Shown here in pieces: positions 12,647 through 34,985 of a stretch of DNA of 64,000 nt. A model generated the notes under the pieces. It was not told the DNA's origin and made no database searches. It was given only the letters and a program-made list of their open reading frames with translations. The translations under genes and the position numbers were made by a program. Position 1 is the stretch's first letter. Every line of letters starts with the position of its first letter. This stretch comes from Jeotgalicoccus saudimassiliensis (GTDB taxonomy: Bacteria; Bacillota; Bacilli; Staphylococcales; Salinicoccaceae), in contig NZ_CCSE01000001.1 in assembly GCF_000756715.1 (NCBI RefSeq), positions 1,116,001-1,180,000 on the forward strand, given 5' to 3'.

Positions 12647-13194
12647 TTTGGCGTTCTATGAAGTCGTCTCATAGAGCTTCTAAACCGTTCGGATTCCTAT
12701 GAACGCATCTCATAGAGCTTCCAAACCTCCAGGATTCCTATGAACGCTTCTCATAGAGCTTCCAAACCCCCAGGATTCCTATGAACGCTTCTCATAGAAC
12801 TTCCAAACCTCCAGGATTCCTATGAGCTCTTCTCATAGAGCTTCCAAACCTCCAGGATTCCTATGAGCTCTTCTCATAGAGCTTCCAAACCCCCAGGATT
12901 CCTATGAGCTCTTCTCATAGAACTTCCAAACCCCCAGGATTCCTATGAGCTCTTCTCATAGAACTTCCAAACCCCCAGGATTCCTTTGAGCTCCTCTCAT
13001 AGAACTTCTAACCCCTCAGGATTCCTATGAACACCCCTCATAGAACTTCTAGAGCGTTCGGATTTCTATGAATGCTTCTCATAGAACTTCTAACCCCCAA
13101 AAATCCCTATGAACCCTTCTCATAGAGCTTCCAAACCCCCAGGATTCCTATGAACGCCCCTCATAGAACACCAACGCAACCAACTCAACCAACG
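12647..13194. repeat. Array of 13 hairpins at an exact 41-bp period (array B)
   Basis: The heptamer CTCATAG (CTCATAGA/G) recurs at 12668, 12709, 12750, 12791, 12832, 12873 and so on to 13160: thirteen copies with twelve exact 41-bp steps and no indel. Each unit holds a small hairpin, CTATGAG...CTCATAG or CTATGA...TCATAG, with a 5-7 nt loop, and a linker of AGCTTCCAAACC-, CCCAGGATTC-type sequence. The ends are inverted relative to each other: TTTGGCGTTCTATGA (12647-12661) against TCATAGAACACCAA (13161-13174). The right end runs into a CCAAC-rich tract. It lies between the acuC and ccpA terminators, so it is probably little transcribed. No long reading frame is supported. Confidence 0.95.
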
Positions 13195-30260: not shown

Positions 30261-31514
30261 ATGTACGATACGATAGTAATCGGCGGCGGCGTCAGCGGAA
30301 TTATGGCAGGCTATGCTGCGAGTCTGAACAATAATAAAGTACTTTTAATCGAAAAAAATAAGAAACTCGGCAAAAAACTGCTGATATCCGGCGGCGGCCG
30401 CTGCAACGTAACGAACCGTCTGCCGTATGAGGAAATTATTAAACATATTCCCGGCAACGGTAAGTTTCTGTACGGCCCGTTCTCCGTATTCGACAACGAA
30501 TCGATTATTAATTTCGTTGAATCCAACGGTGTTAAATTAAAAGAAGAAGACCACGGGCGCATGTTCCCCGTCTCAAACAAAGCTAAAGACGTGCTCAATG
30601 TCTTTTTGGAACAGCTTGACCGTAATAAAGTTGAAATTGAGTTTGCAACGGAAGTCGCGGCAGTCCTCCATGAAGACGGTAAAATTACCGGCGTAAAAAC
30701 GTCCGACGGCAGGACATTTAACGCGCGCAACGTCATAATTACAACCGGCGGCAAAAGCGTGCCGCAGACAGGCTCAACAGGAGACGGCCACAAGTTTGCG
30801 AAAACACTCGGCCATACAGTAACCGAACTCTTCCCGACAGAAGTGCCGATTACATCGAATCAGCGTTTCTTTACAGACGGCACGCTGAAAGGCATCAGCC
30901 TAGACGACGTTGCTTTATCCGTATTAAAGAAAAACGGCAAACCGAGAATTACTCACCAGATGGATATGATTTTCACCCACTTCGGAGTGAGCGGTCCGGC
31001 AGCGCTCCGCTGCAGCCAGTTCGTTTACAAAGAACAGCAGTCACAGAAAAAAGAGAACATTAAAATGCAGCTCGATTTTTTCCCGCAGTACACGATGGGT
31101 GACATGCAGGAATACATTAACAAAACCATTAAAGATAACATCGATAAAAGTCTCAAGAACATTTTAAAAAACATTCACCAGGAACGCCTTGTTGCATTCG
31201 TTCTTGAATATTTAAAAATCGACGGCAGCACGAGTGGCCACCACGTATCCAACCAGCAGAAACAGGCGATTGTTGAATTCTTCAAGCGCTTTACGTTCAA
31301 CGTAAACGGCACACAATCCATCGAAAAAGCATTCGTCACAGGTGGCGGTGTCAATCTGAAAGAAATTAATCCGTCCACAATGTCGAGCAAGCTGATTGAC
31401 GGCCTCCACTTTGCAGGTGAAGTGCTCGACATCCACGGCTACACAGGCGGATACAATATTACGAGCGCACTCGTCACCGGTTATGTGGCAGGATATCACT
31501 GTTCGAACGGGTAA
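30261..31514 (+). CDS. ytfP: NAD(P)/FAD-dependent oxidoreductase YtfP (HI0933 family)
   Basis: 417 aa flavoprotein. The N-terminal dinucleotide fold is VIGGGVSGIMAGYAA, followed by GKKLLISGGGRCNVTN, which is diagnostic for the HI0933 family, and the C-terminal FAGEVLDIHGYTGGYNITSALVTG. Substrate unknown. ATG 30261 follows AAAAGGAG. There is no terminator between its stop and the hairpin array that starts 14 bp later, so its transcript probably runs into the array. Confidence 0.92.
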   Translation: MYDTIVIGGGVSGIMAGYAASLNNNKVLLIEKNKKLGKKLLISGGGRCNVTNRLPYEEIIKHIPGNGKFLYGPFSVFDNESIINFVESNGVKLKEEDHGRMFPVSNKAKDVLNVFLEQLDRNKVEIEFATEVAAVLHEDGKITGVKTSDGRTFNARNVIITTGGKSVPQTGSTGDGHKFAKTLGHTVTELFPTEVPITSNQRFFTDGTLKGISLDDVALSVLKKNGKPRITHQMDMIFTHFGVSGPAALRCSQFVYKEQQSQKKENIKMQLDFFPQYTMGDMQEYINKTIKDNIDKSLKNILKNIHQERLVAFVLEYLKIDGSTSGHHVSNQQKQAIVEFFKRFTFNVNGTQSIEKAFVTGGGVNLKEINPSTMSSKLIDGLHFAGEVLDIHGYTGGYNITSALVTGYVAGYHCSNG

Positions 31515-31527
31515 TGGTTGGATGAAT

Positions 31528-31555
31528 GGTTGGTTGGTTGGTTGGTTGGTTGGTT
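31528..31555 (+). repeat. (GGTT)7 microsatellite at the left edge of array C
   Basis: Seven perfect GGTT copies begin 14 bp after the ytfP stop. Consecutive GG pairs of this kind can form two-layer G-quadruplexes. An approximate inverted counterpart, GAACCAACCCACAAACC, lies at the right edge of the array near 32275. Confidence 0.95.
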
Positions 31556-32292
31556 TACAACGGGGAAACGCTGTTGTCATCCGGGACTGATCGATTCACA
31601 ACGGGGAAATGCCGTTGTCATCCGACGCCGCTCGGTTCACAACGGGAGACCACCGTTGTCATCCAGGACTGCTCGGTTCACAACGGGAGACCACCGTTGT
31701 CATCCGGGGTTGTTCGATTCACAACGGGAAATCGCCGTTGTCATTCGGGACTGATCGATTCACAACGGGGAAACGCCGTTGTCATTCGGGACTGATCGAT
31801 TCACAACGGGAAATCGCCGTTGTCATTCGGGACTGTTCGGTTCACAACGGGGAAACGCCGTTGTCATCCGGCACAACTCGATTCACAACGGGAAATCGCC
31901 GTTGTCATCCGGGACTGATCGATTTACAACGGGGAAACGCTGTTGTCATCCGGGACTACTCGATTCACAACGGGGAAATGCCGTTGTCATCCGGCGCTGT
32001 TCGATTCACAACGGGAGACCGCCGTTGTCATCCAACACAACTCGATTCACAACGGGAAATCGCCGTTGTCATCCAGGACTGCTCGATTCACAACGGGAGA
32101 CCACCGTTGTCATCCGGCGCTGTTCGATTCACAACGGGAGACCGCCGTTGTCATCCAACACAACTCGATTCACAACGGGAGACCGCCGTTGTCATCCGGC
32201 ACAACTCGATTCACAACGGGAAACCGCCGTTGTCATCCGGCACAACTCGGTTCACAACGGGAGACCGCCGTTGTGAACCAACCCACAAACCA
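31531..32292. repeat. Array of 18 hairpins at an exact 41-bp period (array C)
   Basis: ACAACGG recurs from 31557 to 32254; the distance, 697 bp, is exactly 17 x 41, with no indel. Each unit is a hairpin, ACAACGG plus a 7-nt loop plus CCGTTGT (first and ninth copies have CTGTTGT, still pairable), and a linker of CATCC, about eight variable bases and TCGATTC or TCGGTTC. The linkers fall into a few recurring types (GGGACTGA, GGCACAAC, AACACAAC, GGCGCTGT). The ends are inverted: GGTTGGTTTACAACGG at the left and CCGTTGTGAACCAACC at the right. It fills the 841 bp between the convergent ytfP and leuS genes. Confidence 0.96.
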
Positions 32293-32296
32293 AAAA

Positions 32297-32344
32297 AACA
32301 CCGCATCAGACTTCAATCAATCAAGTCCGGTGCGGTGTTTTTTT
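32297..32344. terminator. Bidirectional terminator of leuS
   Basis: AACACCGCA pairs with TGCGGTGTT around a 25-nt loop with further AAGTC/GACTT pairing. A-run on one side and T-run on the other support use in both directions. Confidence 0.9.
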
Positions 32345-32355
32345 ATCTATATAAA

Positions 32356-34770
32356 TTAATTAGCGACAATGTTTACGAGTCTCTGAGGTACAACGATGAC
32401 TTTACGTACCGTCTTACCTTCAAGCTCTCGTTTGATTGTTTCATCAGCAAGTGCAAGTTCTTCTGTTTCTTCTTTTGAAAGGTCTCTTGCGATATCAAGC
32501 TTGTTTTTCACTTTGCCGTTCACCTGTACAACGATCTCAACTGTGTCTTCTACAAGTTTTGATTCGTCGAATGTCGGCCACTCTGCGTATGCGAGTGTTT
32601 CTGTGTTACCCAGAATGCTCCACAGCTCTTCAGCGATGTGCGGTGCTACCGGCGACAGAAGCTTAACGAAGTTTTCAACATATGTTTTGTTTACTTCTTC
32701 AGCTTTGTACGCTTCGTTCACAAATACCATCAGCTGTGAAATACCTGTGTTGAATAACAGCGACTCAAAGTCCGATGTCACTTTTTTCACTGTCTCGTTA
32801 TACACTTTATCGAGTGCAGGAGTTTCCTTATCAACGATTTTCGCCGCCGCTTCTCCTGTTTCTTCATTAACAAGAAGTCTCCATACGCGGTCGAGGAATC
32901 TTCTCGCACCATCCAGTCCGTTTTCGTTCCATGCGATTGACGCATCGAGCGGCCCCATGAACATTTCATACAGTCTCAGTGTATCTGCACCGTGTGAATA
33001 AACGATATCATCAGGGTTTACAACGTTCCCTTTCGACTTACTCATCTTCTCGTTTCCTTCACCGAGAATCATGCCCTGGTTGTACAGTTTCTGGAATGGC
33101 TCTTTTGTAGGTACCACACCCAGGTCATAAAGGAACTTGTGCCAGAATCGTGCATACAGAAGATGAAGTACTGCGTGCTCAGCACCACCGATATACAAGT
33201 CGACCGGCAGCCAGTGTTTAAGTTTCTCCGGATTGGCAAGCTGTTCTGTATTGTGCGGATCGATAAAGCGCAGGAAGTACCAGCTGCTGCCCGCCCACTG
33301 CGGCATTGTGTTCGTTTCACGGCGGCCTTTAACGCCGTCTTCTCTGACAACATTGATCCAGTCAGTGTTGTTGGCAAGCGGTGATTCACCTGTACCGGAT
33401 GGTTTAATCTGAGTCATCACCGGCAGTTCAAGAGGAAGTTCTTCTTCCGGAACTGTCGACATTGTACCGTCTTCCCAATGAATAACAGGAATTGGCTCGC
33501 CCCAGTAACGCTGACGGCTGAATAACCAGTCTCTTAATCTGTAAGTGATTTTCGCTTCGCCCGCACCTTTTTCCTCAAGCAGTTCAATCGCTCGCTTAAT
33601 TCCATCCTCGAGTCCGAGTCCGTCAAGCGGGCCTGAGTTAATGTGTTTACCTTCACCTGTAAATGCTTCTTCTTCAATGTTTCCGCCTTCAAGCACCGGA
33701 ATGATTTTCAGGTCAAACTGTTTTGCGAACTCGTAGTCACGCTCATCGTGTGCCGGAACAGCCATAATTGCACCTGTACCATATGAAGCTAATACATAGT
33801 CTGCAATCCAGATTGGCAGCTTTTCACCGCTTAACGGGTTCACTGCATACGCACCTGTAAATACACCGGTTTTTTCTTTCGCTAAATCAGTACGCTCAAG
33901 CTCACTCTTGTGCGCTGCTTTTTCCTGATATGCTTTAATCGCTTCACGCTGCTCGTCAGACGTAATTTTATCGATTAATTTATGTTCCGGTGAAAGTACT
34001 GCATACGTCGCACCGTAGATCGTATCCGGACGCGTCGTAAACGCAGAGAATGACTCATCGAAGCCGTCGATTTCAAAAGTGACGTTAGCCCCTTCTGATT
34101 TACCAATCCAGTTGCGCTGCATATCTTTTAACGATTCAGGCCAGTCCAGGTCATCAAGGTCTTCAAGCAGACGGTCAGCATACTCGGTAATTTTAAGAAT
34201 CCACTGTCTCATCGGCTTGCGTACTACAGGATGTCCCCCGCGCTCACTCTTGCCGTCGATCACTTCTTCGTTCGCAAGTACTGTGCCGAGTGCTTCACAC
34301 CAGTTCACAGGCACTTCGTCAACGTAAGCCAGACCTTTATTGTACAGCTGTATAAAAATCCACTGCGTCCATTTGTAGTATTCAGGATCCGTCGTGTTAA
34401 TTTCTCTGTCCCAGTCGTAGCTGAAGCCGAGCTCTTTAATCTGACGGCGGAACGTATCGATATTTTTATCGTTGAATTCATGAATATCATTACCCGTGTC
34501 GATTGCATACTGCTCTGCAGGCAGACCGAATGCATCCCAGCCCATCGGGTGAAGCACGTTGTAGCCCTGCATACGTTTCATGCGGCTGACGATATCCGTC
34601 GCTGTGTACCCTTCCGGATGGCCGACGTGAAGTCCTGCACCAGACGGGTACGGGAACATATCAAGTGCGTAGAATTTCTCTTTGCCGATTTCATCTTCAG
34701 TTTTAAAAGTTTTGTTTTCTTCCCAGTGCTGCTGCCATTTCTTTTCGATGTCTCTGTGTTTAAACGTCAT
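32356..34770 (-). CDS. leuS: Leucyl-tRNA synthetase
   Basis: 804 aa class I synthetase. Signature HVGH in [20 protein letters not shown]-type sequence near residue 40, the editing domain with [12 protein letters not shown], and KMSKS in [15 protein letters not shown] 34770 follows AGGAGGAAAACC; the 11-codon upstream extension is part of the leader. Controlled by an upstream T-box. Convergent with ytfP across array C. Confidence 0.97.
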
Positions 34771-34783
34771 TGGTTTTCCTCCT

Positions 34784-34985
34784 ATTAAATAAAAAAATCC
34801 CATATCTAAAAAAGATATGGGACGATCTATAAGACCGCGGTACCACCCGCATTCACATAATGTGCAACTTTAAAAAATATGAAATTAACACAGACAAGTT
34901 CACTTCACGTCAATACCGGTTCACACCAGCCACCGGCTCGCTTAAAAAAACGTTTCTGCTACTACTTCTGATATTAATAATATAG
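34784..34985 (-). promoter_or_regulatory. T-box leader of leuS
   Basis: On the minus strand GGGTGGTACCGCGG (about 34837-34850) is the T-box core. The terminator hairpin CCCATATCT...AGATATGGG with T-run follows at 34790-34822. Stem I has AGCGAGCCGGTGGCTGG. The best specifier reading is GAACTTG with CUU (34898-34896), a leucine codon; the register is less certain than for tyrS. Confidence 0.9.

Follow-up and report, generated by a model that had tools for sequence, protein, structure and literature searches.

How should a row of 18 palindromic units, set one behind another at the shared downstream end of two bacterial genes, be understood? The row lies in Jeotgalicoccus saudimassiliensis, within the 64,000-nucleotide stretch of DNA analysed here (the window, to which positions refer unless another locus is named). 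A gene for a ytfP-type NAD(P)/FAD-dependent oxidoreductase (30261..31514, plus strand, from its open reading frame and the annotation of relatives) converges on an open reading frame at 32356..34803 on the minus strand, which we take to encode a leuS-type leucyl-tRNA synthetase. The name ytfP is that of the initial annotation; the nearest named relatives of the protein come from Jeotgalicoccus, at 84-93% identity. The gap between the two genes holds a tandem array, array C, which might matter as DNA, as RNA or as a set of protein-binding sites, or might have no function at all.

Structure and growth of array C

Array C extends from 31557 to 32274 on the plus strand and comprises 18 units of 41 bp, each with a stem ACAACGG-N7-CCGTTGT and a 20-nt linker (Tandem Repeats Finder and unit table). 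Tandem Repeats Finder reports 17.5 copies of a 41-bp unit over this interval, with 0% indels and a score of 834, and cutting the array in register yields 18 stems of the form ACAACGG-N7-C[C/T]GTTGT. The exact phasing of these hairpins claimed by the initial annotation is therefore borne out, as is its count of 18. Its length of 697 bp corresponds to 17 x 41, and the true distance from first to last stem is 718 bp. The left arm ACAACGG is invariant in 18/18 units and the right arm reads CCGTTGT in 16/18, with six different 7-nt loops among the 18 units and 13 distinct 20-nt linkers among 17, inside which the recurring linker cores described earlier are indeed found.

When the array is compared with offset copies of itself, the longest exact match is 77 bp, at a displacement of three units (31981 and 32104), which supports enlargement through duplication of multi-unit blocks, as had been proposed; Tandem Repeats Finder periods of 82 and 123 agree. 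Bacterial minisatellites (VNTR loci) likewise have tandem units in which indels are rare or absent, and grow by block duplication. This resemblance favours the main rival to a functional reading, in which array C is a functionless minisatellite whose copies arise and multiply by palindrome-aided slippage or recombination, and which persists where insertion is harmless, between gene ends. We regard this as a serious possibility, if short of an even chance, and return to it as each line of evidence is given. A coding repeat was rejected: successive 41-bp units would shift the reading frame, and the open frames that cross the array are taken as chance. A CRISPR array was also rejected, on the repeats alone, as the linkers recur with few base differences and the loops vary, in contrast to unique spacers. 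CRISPR-like arrays with a 73-74 bp period were seen in another genome of the same class (L216, 4356-15651).

The ACAAC family across the genome

The pattern CAACGG-N4..10-CCGTTGT occurs at 160 places in the genome (one contig, 2,191,063 bases), against 0 for the reversed control pattern. From stretches fetched around pattern matches we read 258 units in at least 26 arrays of this ACAAC...GTTGT family. The 21-nt stem was found in 7 of 60 genomes, namely this one and 6/8 genus mates, with 0/51 genomes of other genera containing it; a longer family pattern matched 1 of 121 genomes of the class, again this one.

Across the 258 units the outer five base pairs (ACAAC/GTTGT) are 98-100% constant and loop or linker columns fall as low as 36%, in a consensus restricted to units that match at least 7 of the 10 core letters, a choice that favours constancy of the arms. 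Near-invariant arms over 26 arrays, despite diverging loops and linkers, sit poorly with a functionless minisatellite. They would suit a different alternative, in which a dimeric DNA-binding protein occupies GRWTSACAAC half-sites that point alternately in opposite directions at intervals of 20-21 bp along one helix face: the half-site columns of the ACAAC consensus are strongly conserved and evenly spaced. Unpaired stem positions, read on the canonical strand (the strand that ytfP would transcribe), comprise 54 A-C, 22 G-T and 55 other combinations over the 258 units; on the other strand A-C reads as G-U, and a few arrays dominate these counts.

The canonical strand follows local GC skew, used here as a proxy for replication direction: it is minus in 8/11 skew-positive stretches and plus in 14/15 skew-negative stretches (p = 0.0008), a regularity that speaks for the minisatellite reading. 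The exceptions, 4/26 arrays, lie at 67.8, 71.8, 838.9 and 1115.1 kb. By eye, orientation obeyed no rule relative to the flanking genes. Arrays change orientation between 720 and 838 kb, at a distance from the dif-like site at 921,669. One ACAAC array (genome positions 919222-919684) lies about 2 kb from this sole dif-like match; with dnaA matched best at 1607 kb, the replication arms would be unequal.

Unit lengths and the DNA helix

A second array in the window (12656..13169, plus strand; Tandem Repeats Finder) has 12.5 copies of a unit that is unrelated in sequence, CTATGA-N7-TCATAG, yet equally 41 bp long; the genes around it converge, and terminator-like hairpins flank it both left and right. 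Its family gave 20 matching pieces in the same genome, self-matches and overlaps counted, and matches in the genomes G004, G005 and G007. CTATGA-family matches at genome positions 29394 and 56488, in the 29-57 kb region, share the plus-strand orientation of the two ACAAC exceptions near 70 kb.

The coincidence of length is general. Among arrays in the stretches sampled from this genome, 31/33 have a 41-bp unit and the other 2 a 51-bp unit. Pooling these with arrays from genus mates and two from another genus of the family gave 61 arrays in 23 sequence families (similarity limit 0.66), of which 50 arrays in 16 families have units of 41 bp, 3 arrays in 2 families 42 bp, and 8 arrays in 5 families 51 bp. 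A 200-kb sample from four genus mates, drawn after the pattern was known and partly near earlier matches, contained 10 arrays with units of 41 bp (seven), 42 bp (two) and 51 bp (one). What the initial annotation described at one locus thus belongs to a genome-wide set of arrays with a fixed unit length.

Over 228 loci (3,242,616 bp), many of them fetched because they bear arrays, non-coding arrays with periods of 18-66 bp fell into 38 sequence families with lengths of 20 (two families), 21, 22, 36, 40, 41 (eighteen), 42 (two), 51 (five), 52 (three), 53, 61, 62 and 66 bp. These cluster at 20-22, 40-42, 51-53 and 61-62 bp; the exceptions, 36 and 66, resemble coding repeats. When tested against lengths spread uniformly over 18-66 bp, the best-fitting comb has a spacing of 10.35 bp (p = 0.001); giving Jeotgalicoccus one vote per length (19 votes) moves it to 10.40 bp (p = 0.003). 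The test excludes 12 arrays with an open reading frame running through them (eight families: 18, 18, 41, 42, 51, 51, 51 and 66 bp), arrays with a score under 100 or fewer than 2.3 copies, and periods outside 18-66 bp (the CRISPR-like 73-74, and 122, 145, 231, 234 and 276). It replaces a preliminary test (p = 0.0005) on a hand-made list that lacked some short or AT-rich arrays, for example of 23 and 30 bp. A spacing of 10.35-10.40 bp matches the helical turn of DNA, with 41 bp equal to 4 turns and 51 bp to 5.

In the sampled stretches, therefore, unit lengths lie near whole helical turns whatever the sequence. The shared length of unrelated units hints that their role, or their origin, has to do with the shape of DNA. 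An identical length in 16 families lacking sequence similarity is awkward for a functionless minisatellite, and the recurrence of one unit length in unrelated sequences over the sampled genome sets these arrays apart from bacterial VNTR loci. On that reading the lengths would be a trace of how first duplications form, or of a common ancestral period, either of which could produce the same lengths without function. The same observation counts against a sequence-specific protein: other families keep the 41-bp period with unrelated arms, some of them unevenly spaced, and since the arms are unrelated one protein could not serve all families. We consider such a protein array unlikely.

The A/T content of the units carries a helical signal: over 23 families, power at the harmonic of the helix is 1.66-fold that expected (p = 0.003 with permuted units as the control, 0.007 with intergenic 41-mers), and several families show nearly none. 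In 51-bp units the helical harmonic, k = 5, is the highest; in 41-bp units harmonic k = 20 (1.73) exceeds the helical k = 4 (1.53). Palindromy was dropped as a defining feature, as a stem beat shuffled sequence at 0.05 in only 24/64 array consensus units (60 shuffles each).

Further arrays were recorded on the way. Two of 51 bp in the same genome share the stem TATCACC...GGTGATA (L201, 2034-2456 and 13214-13614), and a genus mate has a related one of equal unit length (L169, 4416-4553). Hairpin arrays also occupy convergent gaps in Lederbergia (52 bp; L104, 5980-6955), Mesobacillus (52 bp; L141, 6619-7150) and Macrococcus (61 bp; L089, 5282-5585), and one locus holds degenerate ATTGCGCAACTT-like tandem repeats of 20-21 bp with higher-order periods of 145 and 227 (L110, 7232-8317).

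Placement, terminators and borders

Arrays prefer convergent gaps in the sampled stretches. Over 644 kb including the window, with gene orientation taken from longest-open-reading-frame calls rather than curated annotation, arrays occupy 8/58 convergent, 8/192 same-direction and 1/70 divergent gaps (convergent against 9/262 others, p = 0.005), which leaves 9 of the 17 array-holding gaps outside the convergent class. Of 29 arrays with a 41-bp period, 19 are convergent, 9 same-direction, 0 divergent and 1 unclassified.

Terminator-like hairpins, judged by eye on folds of array gaps, flank the 19 convergent arrays of this genome on both sides in 10 cases, on one side in 8 and on neither in 1; this set omits the array at 838886, whose right-hand gene is under 300 nt. 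A stricter script found hairpins on both sides in 9/20 convergent arrays, though it also misses the terminator in the window. Orthologous gaps without an array mostly contain one short terminator-like hairpin.

At array C itself, a bidirectional intrinsic terminator that would serve both ytfP and leuS lies beyond the array at 32292..32344, identified from an inverted repeat and folds and assigned to neither strand in particular. Between the ytfP stop at 31514 and the array, a consensus scan and folds revealed no terminator; the consensus scan also misses the one at 32292-32344. Because the only terminator found is on the leuS side, ytfP RNA would be expected to cross array C. The earlier suggestion that the array forms the ytfP 3' untranslated region may thus hold for array C, but not for the whole family, as more than half of the 19 convergent arrays have a hairpin on each side.

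This bears on a further alternative, in which array C acts as a comb of hairpins within that untranslated region, affecting stability or termination or serving as a decoy. Besides the position of the terminator, the folding energy argues for it: array C folds more strongly as RNA than 20 dinucleotide shuffles (z = -6.15). The predicted structure, however, is nested and long-range instead of the plain comb initially envisaged, the conserved flanks GRTTC and CATYC of the 258-unit consensus pair only in part, and it is hard to see what unit lengths in helical turns would mean for RNA. With the paired terminators elsewhere, these points make an RNA comb very improbable. A known RNA family was rejected, the sole match in the window at the Rfam gathering threshold being a SAM riboswitch at another place (RF00162, 61787-61890, minus strand, 70.2 bits).

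The borders of the array are distinctive in composition. On the left, 31515..31556 is G/T-rich on the plus strand and includes the (GGTT)7 edge already noted by the initial annotation, at 31528-31555; on the right, 32275..32291 is A/C-rich, hence G/T-rich when read from the leuS side (both from sequence and border statistics). Array gaps commonly have such a G/T-rich border, of which the (GGTT)7 tract is one instance. In the direction that runs from each gene into the gap, the 40 bases adjoining an array are 76% G+T (25 flanks per side), compared with 52% and 49% for 40 bases at the middle of array-free convergent gaps (n = 42; p near 1e-17), an imperfectly matched control in that array-adjacent bases are set against mid-gap bases. 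Borders of this kind are not what a functionless minisatellite would lead one to expect. In nine arrays of other genera they are weaker and uneven.

Turnover between species

The gap between ytfP and leuS varies between species from no array to 18 units. In the sister genome G004, whose ytfP is 97% identical, it contains 5.8 units of an unrelated 41-bp family. ACAAC-type arrays are found there in G007 and J. psychrophilus, another 41-bp family in G006 and J. marinus, and two units, by eye, in G003. No tandem row was seen in this gap in G001, and no array in G002, G005, G008, J. meleagridis, Aliicoccus, Lacicoccus or three Salinicoccus genomes; some pairs of records probably represent one species (for instance, the gap sequence is the same in G002 and J. 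meleagridis), and the comparisons are not all independent. In the array-free sister genome G005 a terminator follows directly after the ytfP stop (by eye). Directly downstream of ytfP there is a 62-bp array in Macrococcoides bohemicum and a 61-bp array in a Macrococcus strain.

These differing gap contents indicate that arrays are gained and lost, and families exchanged, between close species at a kept unit length. Array C is thus a member of a dispersed and fast-changing set of tandem arrays. Since orthologous array-free gaps are common, no single array is essential, and that close species carry an unrelated family or nothing at all in this gap is as the minisatellite reading would have it.

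Comparison with known repeat systems

The closest functional analogues are the REP/BIME-2 elements, which the available text of two studies describes as many-copy intergenic palindromes, mostly between convergent or same-direction genes and some in arrays, whose copies in E. coli are cut by gyrase (PMC3733652, PMC6379681). Like REP elements, the array C family has an intergenic stem-loop, here of 21 nt and so within the 20-40 bp palindrome range, located mostly in convergent or same-direction gaps. It differs in that the arrays here are tandem, with units of about whole helical turns and many unrelated stems per genome. A GTAG or CGTC tag is absent from the foot of the ACAAC stem, where the 258-unit consensus has GRTTC and CATYC, and the genome has 0 matches to the Y1 transposase RAYT (PF01797), which the same approach detected in 5/14 control genomes. 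A REP/RAYT element was rejected on these two grounds, although RAYT genes may be missing from some REP-bearing species according to the portion of the source at hand (PMC3733652). Array C therefore resembles BIME-2 by analogy only.

STAR elements of Staphylococcus are likewise intergenic direct repeats in species-specific places, with locus-specific spacers and variable copy number, and their multi-copy loci are tandem repeats of about 50 nt, as far as the accessible part of the description goes (PMC3532100). According to that part they have a single 14-bp core, usually as one motif at a locus, whereas here a locus can reach 18 units and the cores are many and unrelated. The STAR core TNTGTTGNGGCCC had 0 matches in the window at up to 1 mismatch, and a STAR element was rejected there. 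No close relative of array C on a plasmid or phage was matched by blastn, in a database from which records near this genome were possibly excluded. In titles and the openings of abstracts, a coverage outside which most subscription papers lie, we found neither these arrays described nor any mention of helical unit lengths for intergenic repeats of bacteria.

A possible role in DNA topology

The reading that we favour, with a probability of roughly 40%, is that array C is a DNA-level topological element at gene ends, wrapped by gyrase or a nucleoid protein. A role at the level of DNA is preferred because of the helical periodicity of A/T content, the terminators and the helical unit lengths taken together; the bias towards convergent gaps and the near-constant ACAAC/GTTGT arms also count in favour of this reading. 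Phased identical units would place flexible A/T-rich and stiffer G/C-rich stretches on one helix face over hundreds of base pairs. Such a platform could be wrapped by a nucleoid protein or, most simply, by DNA gyrase, and would absorb the positive supercoiling driven into the gap by RNA polymerases approaching from both sides; the palindromic arms may assist through bending or extrusion. Whole units would be gained and lost through recombination or slippage, and one array family would give way to another as the length rule stayed.

Published observations on gyrase at comparable sites speak in part against this model. In the accessible part of one report, gyrase builds up downstream of transcribed units in a way that is not hard-wired in sequence and not explained by motif strength, and the gyrase signal at BIME-2 increases when transcription is stopped (PMC6379681). 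Such behaviour fits a simple supercoil sink poorly. The families with almost no helical signal in A/T content, the stronger k = 20 harmonic of 41-bp units, the array gaps that are not convergent, the many consensus units without a significant stem and the array-free orthologous gaps likewise weigh against the model. A minisatellite with a helical bias in duplication would account equally well for the turnover and orientation of the arrays, and less well for their constant arms and borders.

More broadly, we tentatively suggest, as an idea on the unlikely side of the balance, that Bacillales retain a sequence-independent chromosomal element: tandem arrays set by a unit length of whole helical turns, preferring convergent gene ends and with freely replaced sequences, which would act through DNA shape as a topological insulator or gyrase platform. 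If it is length, not sequence, that is kept, these arrays would be a natural experiment on how bacteria handle twist between converging genes. If instead the lengths stem from the way in which tandem duplications form, the arrays would record an unexplained helical bias in mutation.
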